Source of the DNA: a virus
Virus record (IMG/VR): IMGVR_UViG_3300018421_000105
Location: 1 to 32,047 of that record
DNA: 32,047 nt
Reading direction: 5' to 3' (one strand)
Part shown: piece after piece, positions 1-29,440 of the stretch
Layout: every line of letters begins with the position of its first letter
Numbering within the stretch: position 1 is the stretch's first letter
Position numbers and translations under genes: made by a program
The notes under the pieces: model-generated
What the model saw: only the letters and a program-made list of their open reading frames with translations
Told to the model about the DNA's origin: nothing
Databases searched by the model: none

Positions 1-308
1 AGCCAGTCGAGCACAGCACCGACGCGCTCTGCCTGCTCTGGTGTGTCCCACTGGTAATCGCTCAAGAGGTGCTTGTGAGCAACGAACGGCAGGCGAGCTC
101 GCTCGAGATGCTTGAGCTTCTGCCTGAGCGGGTGACAAGTCGGGCAGCGTTTGGCGATGCGCGCTTGACCGGGCTCGCCCTCAACACTGATCCAACCCTG
201 CTCGCACTCGTCGCAGTATGGCAGAGGCGTCGTCGTCAAGACGCCCGAGCTGCTTACCCACTCACTAGCAGGAAAGTTTTCTGCATTGATCTCTCTATAG
301 TTTACCAT
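1..308 (-). CDS. DnaC-like helicase loader, N-terminal part (runs off left edge)
   Basis: Reading the minus strand from ATG at 308 gives an open frame of 102 residues to the window edge. It begins MVNYREINAE. Residues 32-58 hold two Cys pairs (CDEC at 32-35, CPTC at 55-58). A segment RLPFVAHKHLLSDYQWDTPE follows at 72-91. A Cys-pair region followed by a 'LP...L.xYqw.tpeQ' stretch is typical of the N-terminus of phage DnaC/IstB-type AAA+ helicase loaders; the ATPase motifs would lie outside the window. Its ATG overlaps the 3' end of the initiator gene (initiator stop at 304-302), so the two are translationally coupled. Together they resemble the lambda O-P pair: initiator plus a loader that brings the replicative helicase to the origin. 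The family call rests on the N-terminus only; a different zinc-ribbon replication protein remains possible. Confidence 0.68.
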   Translation of the reverse strand, partial: MVNYREINAENFPASEWVSSSGVLTTTPLPYCDECEQGWISVEGEPGQARIAKRCPTCHPLRQKLKHLERARLPFVAHKHLLSDYQWDTPEQAERVGAVLDW

Positions 309-1498
309 CCGTTTACTTTCGTCGTCGTGTGATCGGTGCCGGTTGCCCAAGCTCGATCGATCTCTTTCATTCGTTGCTGTTGTTCTGCTGTGACTGTGTA
401 GACGTTGCTCGCCTTGGGAGGCGCTGCGGGTGTCGAGATGCTTGGGAGGTGTCCCGAAGCTTGAAGCGTCACCCAGTCGATCGCGCTTTGTGGTGCGATG
501 AGCTCCTGAGTCATCTTGTTAAATAACTCATCACCGATCAAGAGCGCATCGCGCACATCGTAGCGTTTGTGGTGCTTGACCTGTCGGTGTACCTCTTGCC
601 GGTACGCGAGGCGATCATCAATGCGCGAGACATACCAGAGACCGTCGCGCAGCTCCTCGGTGATCGGCTCAGGCTCGTGCTTGTCCCACGCATCATCCCA
701 AGCGCGCTCGAGCGTCTTATCAGTCGGCTCTTGATCTGAGCAGATTAGTTTTGAGTGTGGGTATGTATGAGGCCGATCGTTTGGCACATGCTGCTTGCAT
801 CGATCACACCAAACACTCCCCCTCTCAAACTCCCAATACAATTCGCTCGACTCCTCGCGCGCCTCTAGCTCTTGCTCTGCCTCTGTATTGAGAGAAGATT
901 GATCTATATTGATATTATATTGATCTATATTGTTATTGGGTGGCGAAAGTGACACCCCCCCTGTGTCACTTATGACACTACCCCAGTGGCGTTTATGACA
1001 CCCCTCTAGTGTCACATCTGACACCCCCTCTGTGTCACTTTCGCCACTAGTGTCATTGATGACATCAGTGACAGATTCGACCTCTTTACCACTTTTGTCA
1101 CCCATGTCACTTTCGCCACTAGTGTCACTTTCGCCACTAGTGTCATGTGTGACACTGCTAGGTTTAATCTCTGCCGGTGGCGCTGTCTGTGGTCGACCAT
1201 CGAGTATGCTCTTGACGAGCTCCACGTTGAGCCTTGTGTCTGCCTTGTGATGTAGGCGAGGTGTGTCAGAGCGCAGCTCGACAAGGCGCTCGAGCCAGCC
1301 TGCTTTCTTGAGTGATGCCAGATGGCGTTTGACCTGTCGCTCGCCTTGGCTTGACACCTTGGCAATATCTCGCGCGCTCACTTGCCCTGTCCATGTGTGC
1401 CAGTCGAGGCGAGTGCATAGCATGATCAAGGTGTATTTCTGCGCTGTGGTTAAAGTCTCATCGAGGCCGATCGCCCGACGAACATCAAACTCTTTCAT
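302..1498 (-). CDS. Winged-helix replication initiator containing the origin
   Basis: This is a 398-residue protein starting MKEFDVRRAIG. The start at 1498 is chosen because AGAGGAG lies just upstream and a good promoter (1527-1555) lies between it and an earlier in-frame Met. Residues about 15-75 form a winged helix-turn-helix (QVSARDIAKVSS followed by QVKRHLASLKKAGWLERL), the type found in phage replication initiators and DnaD/RepA-like proteins. Residues 116-187 are an acidic Ser/Thr/Gly linker with SGESD repeats, which is also where the DNA iterons lie. Residues 231-253 carry a C-x2-C-x9-H-x8-C zinc module. The C-terminal third (VHRQVKHHKRYDVRDALLIG) is helical and probably contacts the loader encoded by the next gene. 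The expected role is binding the iterons and melting the adjacent AT-rich DNA. The fold is clear; the initiator role is inferred from fold, neighbour and the embedded array. Confidence 0.78.
   Translation of the reverse strand: MKEFDVRRAIGLDETLTTAQKYTLIMLCTRLDWHTWTGQVSARDIAKVSSQGERQVKRHLASLKKAGWLERLVELRSDTPRLHHKADTRLNVELVKSILDGRPQTAPPAEIKPSSVTHDTSGESDTSGESDMGDKSGKEVESVTDVINDTSGESDTEGVSDVTLEGCHKRHWGSVISDTGGVSLSPPNNNIDQYNINIDQSSLNTEAEQELEAREESSELYWEFERGSVWCDRCKQHVPNDRPHTYPHSKLICSDQEPTDKTLERAWDDAWDKHEPEPITEELRDGLWYVSRIDDRLAYRQEVHRQVKHHKRYDVRDALLIGDELFNKMTQELIAPQSAIDWVTLQASGHLPSISTPAAPPKASNVYTVTAEQQQRMKEIDRAWATGTDHTTTKVNGW
897..938. other. AT-rich probable DNA-unwinding element with two 13-mers
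   Basis: A nearly pure A/T stretch in an otherwise GC-rich gene. The 13-mer TTGATCTATATTG occurs at 899-911 and again at 920-932, exactly 21 bp (two helical turns) apart, with a diverged copy between them. Each contains GATCT, like the GATCTnTTnTTTT 13-mers of E. coli oriC. It abuts the iteron array at 940. The unwinding role is inferred from position and composition. Confidence 0.65.
940..1155. repeat. Eleven-unit iteron array of 16-bp dyads, 23-bp then 18-bp phasing
   Basis: The unit is two 6-bp half-sites in inverted orientation with a 4-bp centre; half-sites are GTGTCA or GTGGCG. Units start at 940, 963, 986, 1009, 1032, 1050, 1068, 1086, 1104, 1122 and 1140: four steps of 23 bp, then six of 18 bp. 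Exact GTGTCA-N4-TGACAC occurs at 963, 1009 and 1140; GTGGCG-N4-TGACAC at 940 and 986; GTGTCA-N4-CGCCAC at 1032 and 1122. The units at 1050 and 1104 have one change, and those at 1068 and 1086 are degenerate. The 23-bp part uses C-rich 7-bp linkers. An 18-mer TGTCACTTTCGCCACTAG is exact at 1033, 1105 and 1123. Two-fold units fit binding by a dimer. Confidence 0.9.
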
Positions 1499-1646: not shown

Positions 1647-1883
1647 ATGACTCTCAACCAACGGCTAAAGCAGGATCTCAAAGCCGATCGATACAACCTG
1701 GGCCACCTCGCAAAAGAGGCAAGCGTTTCTCGCTCATACCTCTACACGATCTTGAGCGGCAACCTTACACCATCAATTCACGTCGCGACCTGCCTCGCGA
1801 TGTCAGCTAACAAGCTCACCAACAGCACAAGCTACACCCCCGATATGTTTATGACCCTCGCCACACAGGAGCTCGACAAATGA
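1647..1883 (+). CDS. Small XRE/Cro-type helix-turn-helix regulator
   Basis: A 78-residue protein with AGGAGG seven bases before its ATG. Residues about 17-40 (NLGHLAKEASVSRSYLYTIL) form a classic Cro/C1-type helix-turn-helix: 'lAkeasVSrsyLytIlsG' with a recognition helix. The rest is a short helical C-terminus, so there is no cleavable repressor domain. It sits at the divergent promoter region facing the initiator operon and most likely represses or balances early transcription there. It overlaps the next gene by 4 bp (ATGA). Whether this is a lysogeny repressor or a Cro-like early regulator cannot be told; no integrase is present in the window. Confidence 0.75.
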   Translation: MTLNQRLKQDLKADRYNLGHLAKEASVSRSYLYTILSGNLTPSIHVATCLAMSANKLTNSTSYTPDMFMTLATQELDK

Positions 1884-3350: not shown

Positions 3351-3482
3351 GCAGGCGAGCGCCCCATACGCGATCACAGCGACGAGGGCAAAGGCCCAAG
3401 CGTTGTCGCCAATAGAGCTCGCGATCTCGTCTGCAAAGTAGCTGAGCAGGCAGACGAGGATCAAGACGAGGGTCGAGTGCAT
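3348..3482 (-). CDS. 44-residue hydrophobic membrane peptide
   Basis: The ATG at 3482 shares a base with the stop codon of the ribonucleotide reductase gene (TAATG), the coupling used elsewhere in this genome. The 44-residue product reads MHSTLVLILVCLLSYF at the start and NAWAFALVAVIAYGALAC at the end: two hydrophobic segments separated by a short acidic loop (ADEIASSIGD). It ends in tandem stops (TAA TAA), just before the terminator. Two short helices with a polar turn fit a small holin or other inner-membrane peptide, but there is no motif to prove a function. Codon choice resembles the neighbouring genes, which supports a real gene. Confidence 0.6.
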   Translation of the reverse strand: MHSTLVLILVCLLSYFADEIASSIGDNAWAFALVAVIAYGALAC

Positions 3483-5488
3483 TACAGAGTGATGGTGCAT
3501 TGTCCTGCTGAACATGCCGGCTCGAGCTGCGCGGCAAAGTAGTCGGAGTCAAGGTGTTGAAGGTCTACACCTGACCAGTCGATTTGCGCAAGCTTTAACC
3601 AGAGCGCCTCTGCCTCTGTGCCCTCTTCTACTGTTTGGTAGGGCGCATTGTTATATGCCGAGTCGCCAAACCAACCGAGGAGCGCGACGCCTCTGAGCTC
3701 GCCTCGTGCCTCCCATAGAAAATCCGCTACATCATCCCATTCGTGATTCTTCACTGTGCAGGTGTTGCTCACGTTGTGCGTCAAGCCCTCGACTCGGGTT
3801 TGCTTTGAGCCCGGCAAGACCCAGTGCTGATACACGAGGCGCACGCGCTCAAGATGTGCGAGCGCTGAATCATCCTCACGAGTCAATGCGCCCTCTGGTG
3901 CTGAGCAGGCAAACGCGACGACCCCAGTGTGCTCATCGATGCTCGTGCAGGCGTCTGGTACCTTGCGCTCGAGCTCTGCCCATACCGGGTTTACTTTCGC
4001 AATCCTCATGCGCCTGACATAGCGTCGCGCATGGAAAGGGTGCACACCGGCAGATGTACCAGCGACTGTTGAGGTGTTACCCGATGGCTTGACTGTAGTC
4101 ACACGCGAGGCAGGCTTGATGCCGATCGCCTTTGCTGTCTTAGCGTTGGTCTCGATACAGACGCGCGCACCCTCCTCGAGCAGCTCTGGGTCAAACATGA
4201 GATCAGGAGCTGCACACATGCCGGTGATGCTCACACCGAGCAGCGCCTCTTGCTGTAAGATGACCTTGGTCACTAAAAGCAAATAACCTTGATAAGTATA
4301 GCCTGCTTGCAGTGTTCCTATATGTGCAGCTGCCTCGCACGCCTCGAGGAACTGCTCGCGCGTCTCGATCTTGGCTGCGTTGATCTCGGTCAAGTTACAG
4401 ACGGCCCAACCAGAGACCCACTCATAACCGAGGCGCTCAAAGTGCTCGCGACGCTCGAGCAGGTCAAGCGTGATCTCTGTCACTTGATTGCCTTTGGAAT
4501 CTGTCACAACATATGGAAAGAGACCAATTTCTGCGCATGGGTTCGTGCCGTGATGCTCGTTAGCGCACCACATGACACCGGGCTCACCCCACTGTTTCGC
4601 GAGCTGCACAATCTGATCGACTGTTGACCGGTCGGCATCGGTGATCGAGAGCCCTGCGCTGATGTTCGCGTATGCTCGTGCAGGATGATCGATGTACCAG
4701 TCACCGGTCTTGCTCTCGAGCATCAGGTGATCGTCCTCGTCAAAGATCGCGATCGAGGCAGAGCGACGCACGCCACCTGACAGCACTGCCTCGCTCAAGA
4801 GCATCATGACATCAAAACAGTCGATCGAGCGCAGGCGAGGCATCTTGGTCAGGCATAGCCTGCTCAGCATCTTGTCGATCTGCTCAAGCGCTTTCTCGAG
4901 AGGCCCATGACCTGGTGCGAATCCTCCTGAGCTGATCGGTGCGCCCTTGGCTCGAATCAGTGAGAAATCAAAGCGCCAGTCGATATAATCCTCATAATAC
5001 CCTCGGTGCAGATAGCTCTCGATAAGCATGTTGACTGCCGTTGCCCACCCCTCGATCGAGTCGCTGATCGTATGCACACGACGCTCGCGCCTGATCATCT
5101 CGCTCGGTGTCAGCAGACGAGGCAGGCGCTTGATGTCTTTCTGCCTGAGCGAGAAGCCAGTGCCACAACCTGAGAGCAGGAGCCAGAAAGCCTCGCTAAA
5201 GAATCGAGGACGATCGCAAGGCGAGTATGTGCAATTATAGATGCGCATATTATTGCGCTCGATAGGACGCCCTCCAAACTGTGTCGAGCGCTGCGATGGG
5301 AACACACGTTGCTGTCTCACGAGCTTAAATGCGCTCATCGTCTGCCCGACGACTTGAGGGTATCTCTTAAGGTGCATCGCCTCGACTCGCGACACTGCAT
5401 GATCCCATAACTCTCGACCACCACCACCGACCAAGGGCCGAGCATACTGCGCACTAAAGGCGACACGCCCTAGTAGTTCATTCTGCAT
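3482..5488 (-). CDS. nrdJ: Class II (adenosylcobalamin-dependent) ribonucleotide reductase
   Basis: A 668-residue enzyme of the monomeric class II type, somewhat shorter than the Lactobacillus leichmannii enzyme. It reduces ribonucleotides to deoxyribonucleotides using a B12-derived radical. Key residues are visible. NCTYSPCD carries the first redox Cys (C86). NPCAEIGL holds the thiyl-radical Cys (C318) and Glu320. VCNLTEIN holds the second redox Cys (C364). The C-terminal CSAGQC (C659, C664) is the shuttle pair that re-reduces the active site. No small radical subunit gene lies nearby, as expected for class II. AGAGG precedes the ATG. A perfect GGGCC/GGCCC hairpin (5498-5510) sits just before the Shine-Dalgarno site. 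It supplies dNTPs for phage replication and ties the phage to hosts that make or import cobalamin. Confidence 0.93.
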   Translation of the reverse strand: MQNELLGRVAFSAQYARPLVGGGGRELWDHAVSRVEAMHLKRYPQVVGQTMSAFKLVRQQRVFPSQRSTQFGGRPIERNNMRIYNCTYSPCDRPRFFSEAFWLLLSGCGTGFSLRQKDIKRLPRLLTPSEMIRRERRVHTISDSIEGWATAVNMLIESYLHRGYYEDYIDWRFDFSLIRAKGAPISSGGFAPGHGPLEKALEQIDKMLSRLCLTKMPRLRSIDCFDVMMLLSEAVLSGGVRRSASIAIFDEDDHLMLESKTGDWYIDHPARAYANISAGLSITDADRSTVDQIVQLAKQWGEPGVMWCANEHHGTNPCAEIGLFPYVVTDSKGNQVTEITLDLLERREHFERLGYEWVSGWAVCNLTEINAAKIETREQFLEACEAAAHIGTLQAGYTYQGYLLLVTKVILQQEALLGVSITGMCAAPDLMFDPELLEEGARVCIETNAKTAKAIGIKPASRVTTVKPSGNTSTVAGTSAGVHPFHARRYVRRMRIAKVNPVWAELERKVPDACTSIDEHTGVVAFACSAPEGALTREDDSALAHLERVRLVYQHWVLPGSKQTRVEGLTHNVSNTCTVKNHEWDDVADFLWEARGELRGVALLGWFGDSAYNNAPYQTVEEGTEAEALWLKLAQIDWSGVDLQHLDSDYFAAQLEPACSAGQCTITL

Positions 5489-29251: not shown

Positions 29252-29440
29252 TTAATCGGGCGCTTTGTCAAGCCCTGTATGAGGCCACCTGCCTCGAGCC
29301 TTTAGCGCCTCAAAGTCAGTCGGGCGCTCATCGGTACAGATCGATCTTGCGAATCGCCATCGATGAGGCTTGCCGAGCTCCTGCCACGATCGACAGCGCT
29401 CGCACCATGCAAAGTCAATCGTCGTATTTTGCGAGCTCAT
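29252..29440 (-). CDS. 62-residue CCHC zinc-module protein
   Basis: The product starts MSSQNTTIDFAWCERCRSW. It holds a C-x2-C-x9-H-x8-C motif (C13, C16, H26, C35) followed by TDERPTD. The same motif with identical spacing occurs in the replication initiator (C231, C234, H244, C253), including W before the first Cys, R between the Cys pair, PH at the His, IC at the last Cys and a shared PTD. It probably binds zinc and may contact nucleic acid or a common partner. It overlaps the DUF3310 gene by 26 bp. The function is unknown; homology with the initiator module is the only clue. Confidence 0.62.
   Translation of the reverse strand: MSSQNTTIDFAWCERCRSWQELGKPHRWRFARSICTDERPTDFEALKARGRWPHTGLDKAPD

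Follow-up and report, generated by a model that had tools for sequence, protein, structure and literature searches.

A nine-dyad iteron array inside the initiator gene of an uncultured phage is a candidate lambda-type replication origin

What is the function of a dense series of inverted repeats that lies not between genes, but inside a putative replication initiator gene of an uncultured phage? We addressed this question for the array at positions 940–1155 of the window, i.e., the whole 32,047-nucleotide stretch of viral DNA analyzed here. The initial annotation had read the array as a lambda-like origin with more units, and this reading is well supported. Multiple inverted repeats, which are candidate initiator sites, lie within the gene for an O-like initiator; an AT-rich candidate unwinding element of approximately 40 bp is adjacent (898–937, 85% AT, the highest for any 40 bp of the window); and a helicase loader is encoded beside the initiator. 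The AlphaFold2 model of the initiator has an N-terminal DNA-binding domain, a flexible middle, and a separate C-terminal domain, and the N-domain and iteron types of relatives change together. We infer that these repeats are very probably the iterons of an in-gene phage replication origin of the lambda type, as regards both initiator binding and origin activity.

The composition of the array was determined by comparing it with those of relatives, all of which were metagenomic virus contigs; their initiator N-domains fall into four types (A–D), each with its own iterons. Eleven inverted-repeat units had been listed, and 16-bp units are indeed present at all eleven positions, separated by four steps of 23 bp and then six of 18 bp. 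There are likewise exactly eleven GTGTCA/TGACAC hexamers (GTGTCA at 963, 1009, 1032, 1050, 1122, and 1140; TGACAC at 950, 973, 996, 1019, and 1150). The eleven-slot register therefore stands, but the number of dyads is nine: seven units match GTGKCR-N4-YGMCAC exactly, two (1050 and 1104) have one mismatch, and the units at 1068 (GTGACAGATTCGACCT) and 1086 (TTACCACTTTTGTCAC) are degenerate, neither being a dyad. Across 14 type-A sequences, the nine dyads are retained, no arm having more than one mismatch. The two slots spanning the 54-bp step (three times 18 bp in the register) are not conserved as dyads in these sequences, which rules out eleven equal units. Each retains a single arm (GTGACA, which is GTGGCA in L084, and TGTCAC), and hence the array consists of nine dyads and two conserved half-sites. 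Between the dyads of the 23-bp block lie 7-bp linkers, C-rich on the plus strand as first described and G-rich on the coding strand; this G-richness persists in relatives. GTGTCA and GTGGCG replace each other at the same slot between relatives and so seem to be alternative forms of a single half-site, RTGKCR.

Table 1. Features of the putative origin region (window coordinates)
Feature	Coordinates	Strand	Remarks
O-like replication initiator gene (P0001)	305..1498	−	398 aa; stop codon at 302–304
N-terminal winged-helix DNA-binding domain (aa 1–95)	1214..1498	−	AlphaFold2 prediction
C-terminal helical region of initiator	341..835	−	exchanged independently of N-terminal domain
DnaC-like helicase loader gene, start only	3..308	−	cut by window end; ATG overlaps initiator stop
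AT-rich presumed DNA unwinding element (DUE)	885..939		directly adjoins last dyad
Iteron array	940–1155		within initiator gene (minus strand)
DUE-proximal block	940..1047		five dyads at 940, 963, 986, 1009, 1032; 23-bp steps, all three codon frames
Dyad GTGTCATTGATGACAT	1050..1065		one mismatch; 18 bp from unit 1032
Gap with degenerate slots 1068 and 1086	1066..1103		interior not conserved; a half-site is retained at either end
Dyad ATGTCACTTTCGCCAC	1104..1119		one mismatch; neighbor at 1122 is 18 bp away
Two distal dyads, starting at 1122 and 1140	1122..1155		18-bp step

Database searches place the initiator among the O-like replication initiators of PHROG, with modest scores (family 270, replication initiation protein, 1.7e-5; family 391, O-like, 1.4e-4). 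Against Pfam, P0001 matched HTH_36 just under the cutoff (4.7e-5) and gave no match to PF04492 (Phage_rep_O), to which a relative, L064, scored 0.02. The initiator is outside PF04492 by this test, yet appears to work like lambda O. Searching it by tblastn against cultured phages, lambda included, yielded no match, and a sequence search of solved structures yielded no relative. AlphaFold2 confidently predicted a winged-helix N-domain (pLDDT ~83–90 over residues 1–70) with a recognition helix at approximately residues 53–65, then a disordered linker, which is the part encoded by the array, and a separate helical C-terminal region. A zinc-ribbon-like insert in the initiator (residues 229–263) is absent from several relatives; a 62-residue open reading frame elsewhere in the window (29252–29440, minus strand) carries a WCxRC...H...IC motif and resembles this insert (E 1.8e-5).

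The closest PDB fold matches of the N-domain were MarR-type winged helices, though none were below E 0.001. Given the likeness to MarR-type repressors, and that dimers bound to dyads are typical of operators, the array might instead serve transcriptional repression or autoregulation by the winged-helix protein. We regard this as very improbable: the array is located mid-gene, away from the promoter, beside the 40 bp with the highest AT content of the window, and the protein has its matches among replication-initiator families. Furthermore, no exact dyad of the array type was found in the intergenic region 1499–1646, nor anywhere else in the 32-kb window beyond the seven in the array.

The sequences flanking the array are consistent with an origin. 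The AT-rich region (gene nucleotides 560–600) is 97% identical to that of L083, whereas the segments on either side are 72% and 62% identical. Though the loader gene is cut by the window end, its full-length homologue in L013 matches the DnaC-like helicase loaders of PHROG 50 (1.3e-17). Scans of bacterial and archaeal genomes for the host yielded no relative, and the major capsid protein (MCP) and RecT had distant matches in cultured phages, with ~25% identity or less among the matches listed. The loader and a host helicase are presumed partners of the initiator. Other genes in the vicinity include a small, weakly repressor-like helix-turn-helix gene (1647–1883, plus strand) divergent from the initiator, and a ribonucleotide reductase gene (3482–5488, minus strand), perhaps of class II (B12-dependent), with a weak insertion-domain match.

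Relatives also share the spacing of the array. Read along the coding strand, the steps are 18, 18, 54, 18, 23, 23, 23, and 23 bp from first to last. This layout is exact in near relatives (L024 being truncated) and also in L083–L085, in which the N-domain is ~75% identical and the array begins 39 nt earlier in the gene. In L082 (N-domain 84% identical), four units next to the DUE are still spaced by 23 bp, but the distal part has lost 36 bp (2 × 18) relative to the window, which indicates that the 18-bp and 23-bp blocks evolve differently. The two blocks may also differ in how dimers pack on them, as the initial annotation had suggested. As the array is coding, its indels have to be multiples of three, and this alone restrains changes in spacing; coding constraint thus contributes to the stability of the layout by disfavoring non-triplet indels.

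A variable block of this kind could also be envisaged in a copy-control element. Plasmid iteron arrays also serve copy control, and the variable 18-bp block could have such a role; the array would then be a centromere-like partition site or an incompatibility or copy-control locus and not itself the origin. However, the array sits within the initiator gene at a fixed position against the AT-rich element, and no partition genes were recognized among the scanned proteins, which covered some of the window's genes; we consider this explanation very unlikely.

Selection acts at the DNA level on the dyad arms. In 20,000 synonymous recodings of the peptide encoded by the array, exact dyads averaged 0.10 (maximum 3), compared to the 7 observed; allowing up to one mismatch, they averaged 1.03 (maximum 6), compared to 9. 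Permuting the initiator gene's own codons produced at most 2 exact dyads, again compared to 7. Between the window group and L083–L085, the arms differ at 13.9% of sites without codon periodicity (15.3% at third positions), while the differences reach 46.9% in the centers, 46.2% in the gap, and 58.8% at third positions of the adjacent N-domain. This conservation of the arms amid drift indicates selection on DNA. The initial annotation had held that a linker peptide conserved without dyad phasing would speak against an origin, and the opposite is seen: relatives keep the dyads and their phasing as the centers and gap drift. That the repeats instead serve the protein, as a low-complexity DTSGES linker with DNA similarity left by tandem duplication, is hardly credible, even though hexapeptide repeats are encoded in frame by the 18-bp block, the steps of type C are all divisible by three, and L008 contains an in-frame duplication. 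With steps of 23 bp, dyads fall in each of the three reading frames, and the 23-bp block encodes unrelated peptides; arm third positions are as conserved as other positions, and the linker is predicted to be disordered. The recoding, which destroys the dyads, and the frame analysis led us to reject the array as a by-product of protein repeats.

The co-variation of binding domain and iterons further supports the reading of the array as an origin. Type B initiator genes contain GTGACAGAAAGTCAC units, which in L007 step by 23, 34, 23, 34, 23, 22, 23, and 22 bp and in L008 number 11 following a 57-bp (23 + 34) in-frame duplication. Type C genes contain TACGACAGAATTGGTCA units, often 24 bp apart, and type D is similar. 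No mixture of types A and B occurred in a set of 38 distinct sequences, while types C and D were only weakly separated, their iterons being similar. In types A and B, the last dyad ends right at the AT-rich element. The two halves of the initiator have been exchanged independently: the window and L008 share 43% identity in their N-domains and 97% in their C-domains, whereas the window and L017 share 96% and 46%, respectively. Identity between the window and L008 DNA rises from ~0.5 to 1.0 at gene nucleotide 560, where the last dyad ends, and hence the recombination breakpoint sits at the last iteron. Loader identity tracks that of the C-domain (rho 0.54) and not that of the N-domain (rho −0.02), though these pairs are related and non-independent, such that a p-value is not meaningful. 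By these comparisons, the binding domain travels together with its iterons as a single cassette, and the C-terminal domain with the loader.

L082 (4001–5005) differs from the window in its predicted recognition helix, where Lys57 is replaced by Phe, and at base 1 of the dyad arm, where G is replaced by C or A. It is grouped in type A by its N-domain, yet its arm consensus is shifted, and we predict it to be a close natural specificity variant. The phage family as a whole provides natural variants: roughly four cassettes of binding domain and iterons, joined to C-terminal domains that are interchangeable, in addition to L082. These variants make it testable whether such origins are opened by iteron geometry or by iteron sequence, and what role the distal iterons have.

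These observations can be accommodated in a model of origin firing. The winged-helix domain of the initiator would bind each 16-bp dyad (arms RTGKCR, with a free 4-bp center) as a dimer. Approximately nine dimers on the 18/54/18/23 layout could then form an O-some-like complex that strains the adjoining AT-rich element until it opens, upon which the C-terminal domain may recruit the DnaC-like loader encoded by the neighboring gene, together with the helicase of the host. The core is probably formed by the five 23-bp units closest to the DUE. The 18-bp block, whose step corresponds to about 1.7 helical turns, is probably auxiliary and may raise the local concentration of initiator or stabilize the complex. 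More tentatively, and with less chance of being correct than not, the nine-dimer complex may combine two structurally distinct parts, an invariant 23-bp core beside the AT-rich element and a variable, tightly packed 18-bp block that regulates firing, with geometry rather than iteron sequence being what is conserved across the interchangeable cassettes of binding domain and iterons.

Comparison with known systems shows which aspects of the array are ordinary and which are distinctive. In phage lambda, O dimers bind inverted-repeat iterons within gene O beside a 40-bp AT-rich region (PMC5043065), and iterons are known to differ from one O-like protein to another, lying in each case within the gene (PMC8022706). 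The lambda origin (J02459, 39034–39118) resembles that of the window in its in-gene inverted-repeat iterons, its adjoining AT-rich region of 40 bp, and the loader gene that follows, although this loader is P rather than DnaC-like. The occurrence of two phases in one array had been considered unusual, but this is rejected by comparison with lambda and sampled O-like genes. The annotated lambda iterons step by 20, 24, and 23 bp, with 23–24 bp nearest the AT-rich side, and our repeat search recovers them. In a small survey of twelve other O-like genes, the same search gave steps of 20, 24, and 23 bp for Providencia PSTCR7lys and 20, 24, and 24 bp for Erwinia Midgardsormr38, while reading dyads by eye suggested ~20, 24, and 23 bp for 720R6 (E. 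coli) and a P22-like phage. Escherichia phage Turner (L108, 652–764) has at least five dyads in its lambda-like O gene, stepping by 29, 19, 24, and 23 bp, and its iteron (about TTACCYGAATCAGGTAA) differs from that of lambda. As lambda and five sampled O-like genes share such layouts, mixed phasing, with 23–24 bp by the AT-rich side, appears normal for these origins. The iterons of these phages differ in sequence from those of lambda; the Providencia and P22-like iterons resemble each other. The O-like gene of Shigella phage SfIV (L109, 594–1535) has a non-lambda spacing, with seven repeats related to TCAAAATCTGA at mostly 15-bp steps.

The Stx lambdoid phages P27 and 933W offer a parallel for the distal units. 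In these phages, good binding is confined to the four iterons closest to the AT-rich region, whereas the distal two are poorly bound yet required for replication (PMC7466680). Like the window, these phages contain extra distal iterons added in frame; in contrast, they have six iterons of lambda sequence, the two extras adding 13 residues (39 bp) (PMC7466680). Lambda itself has four iterons of 18–19 bp, compared to nine dyads of 16 bp in the window, and lacks both the 18-bp block and the 54-bp step. Four or five units were likewise counted in the surveyed genes of the P22-like phage, Midgardsormr38, PSTCR7lys, Turner, and 720R6. Hence, as far as searched, three aspects are new, i.e., how many sites there are, the regular 18-bp block that includes a 54-bp step, and the fixed nature of the layout: the lambda-type origins compared have four to six iterons, whereas the uncultured phage family represented by the window has nine or more sites.
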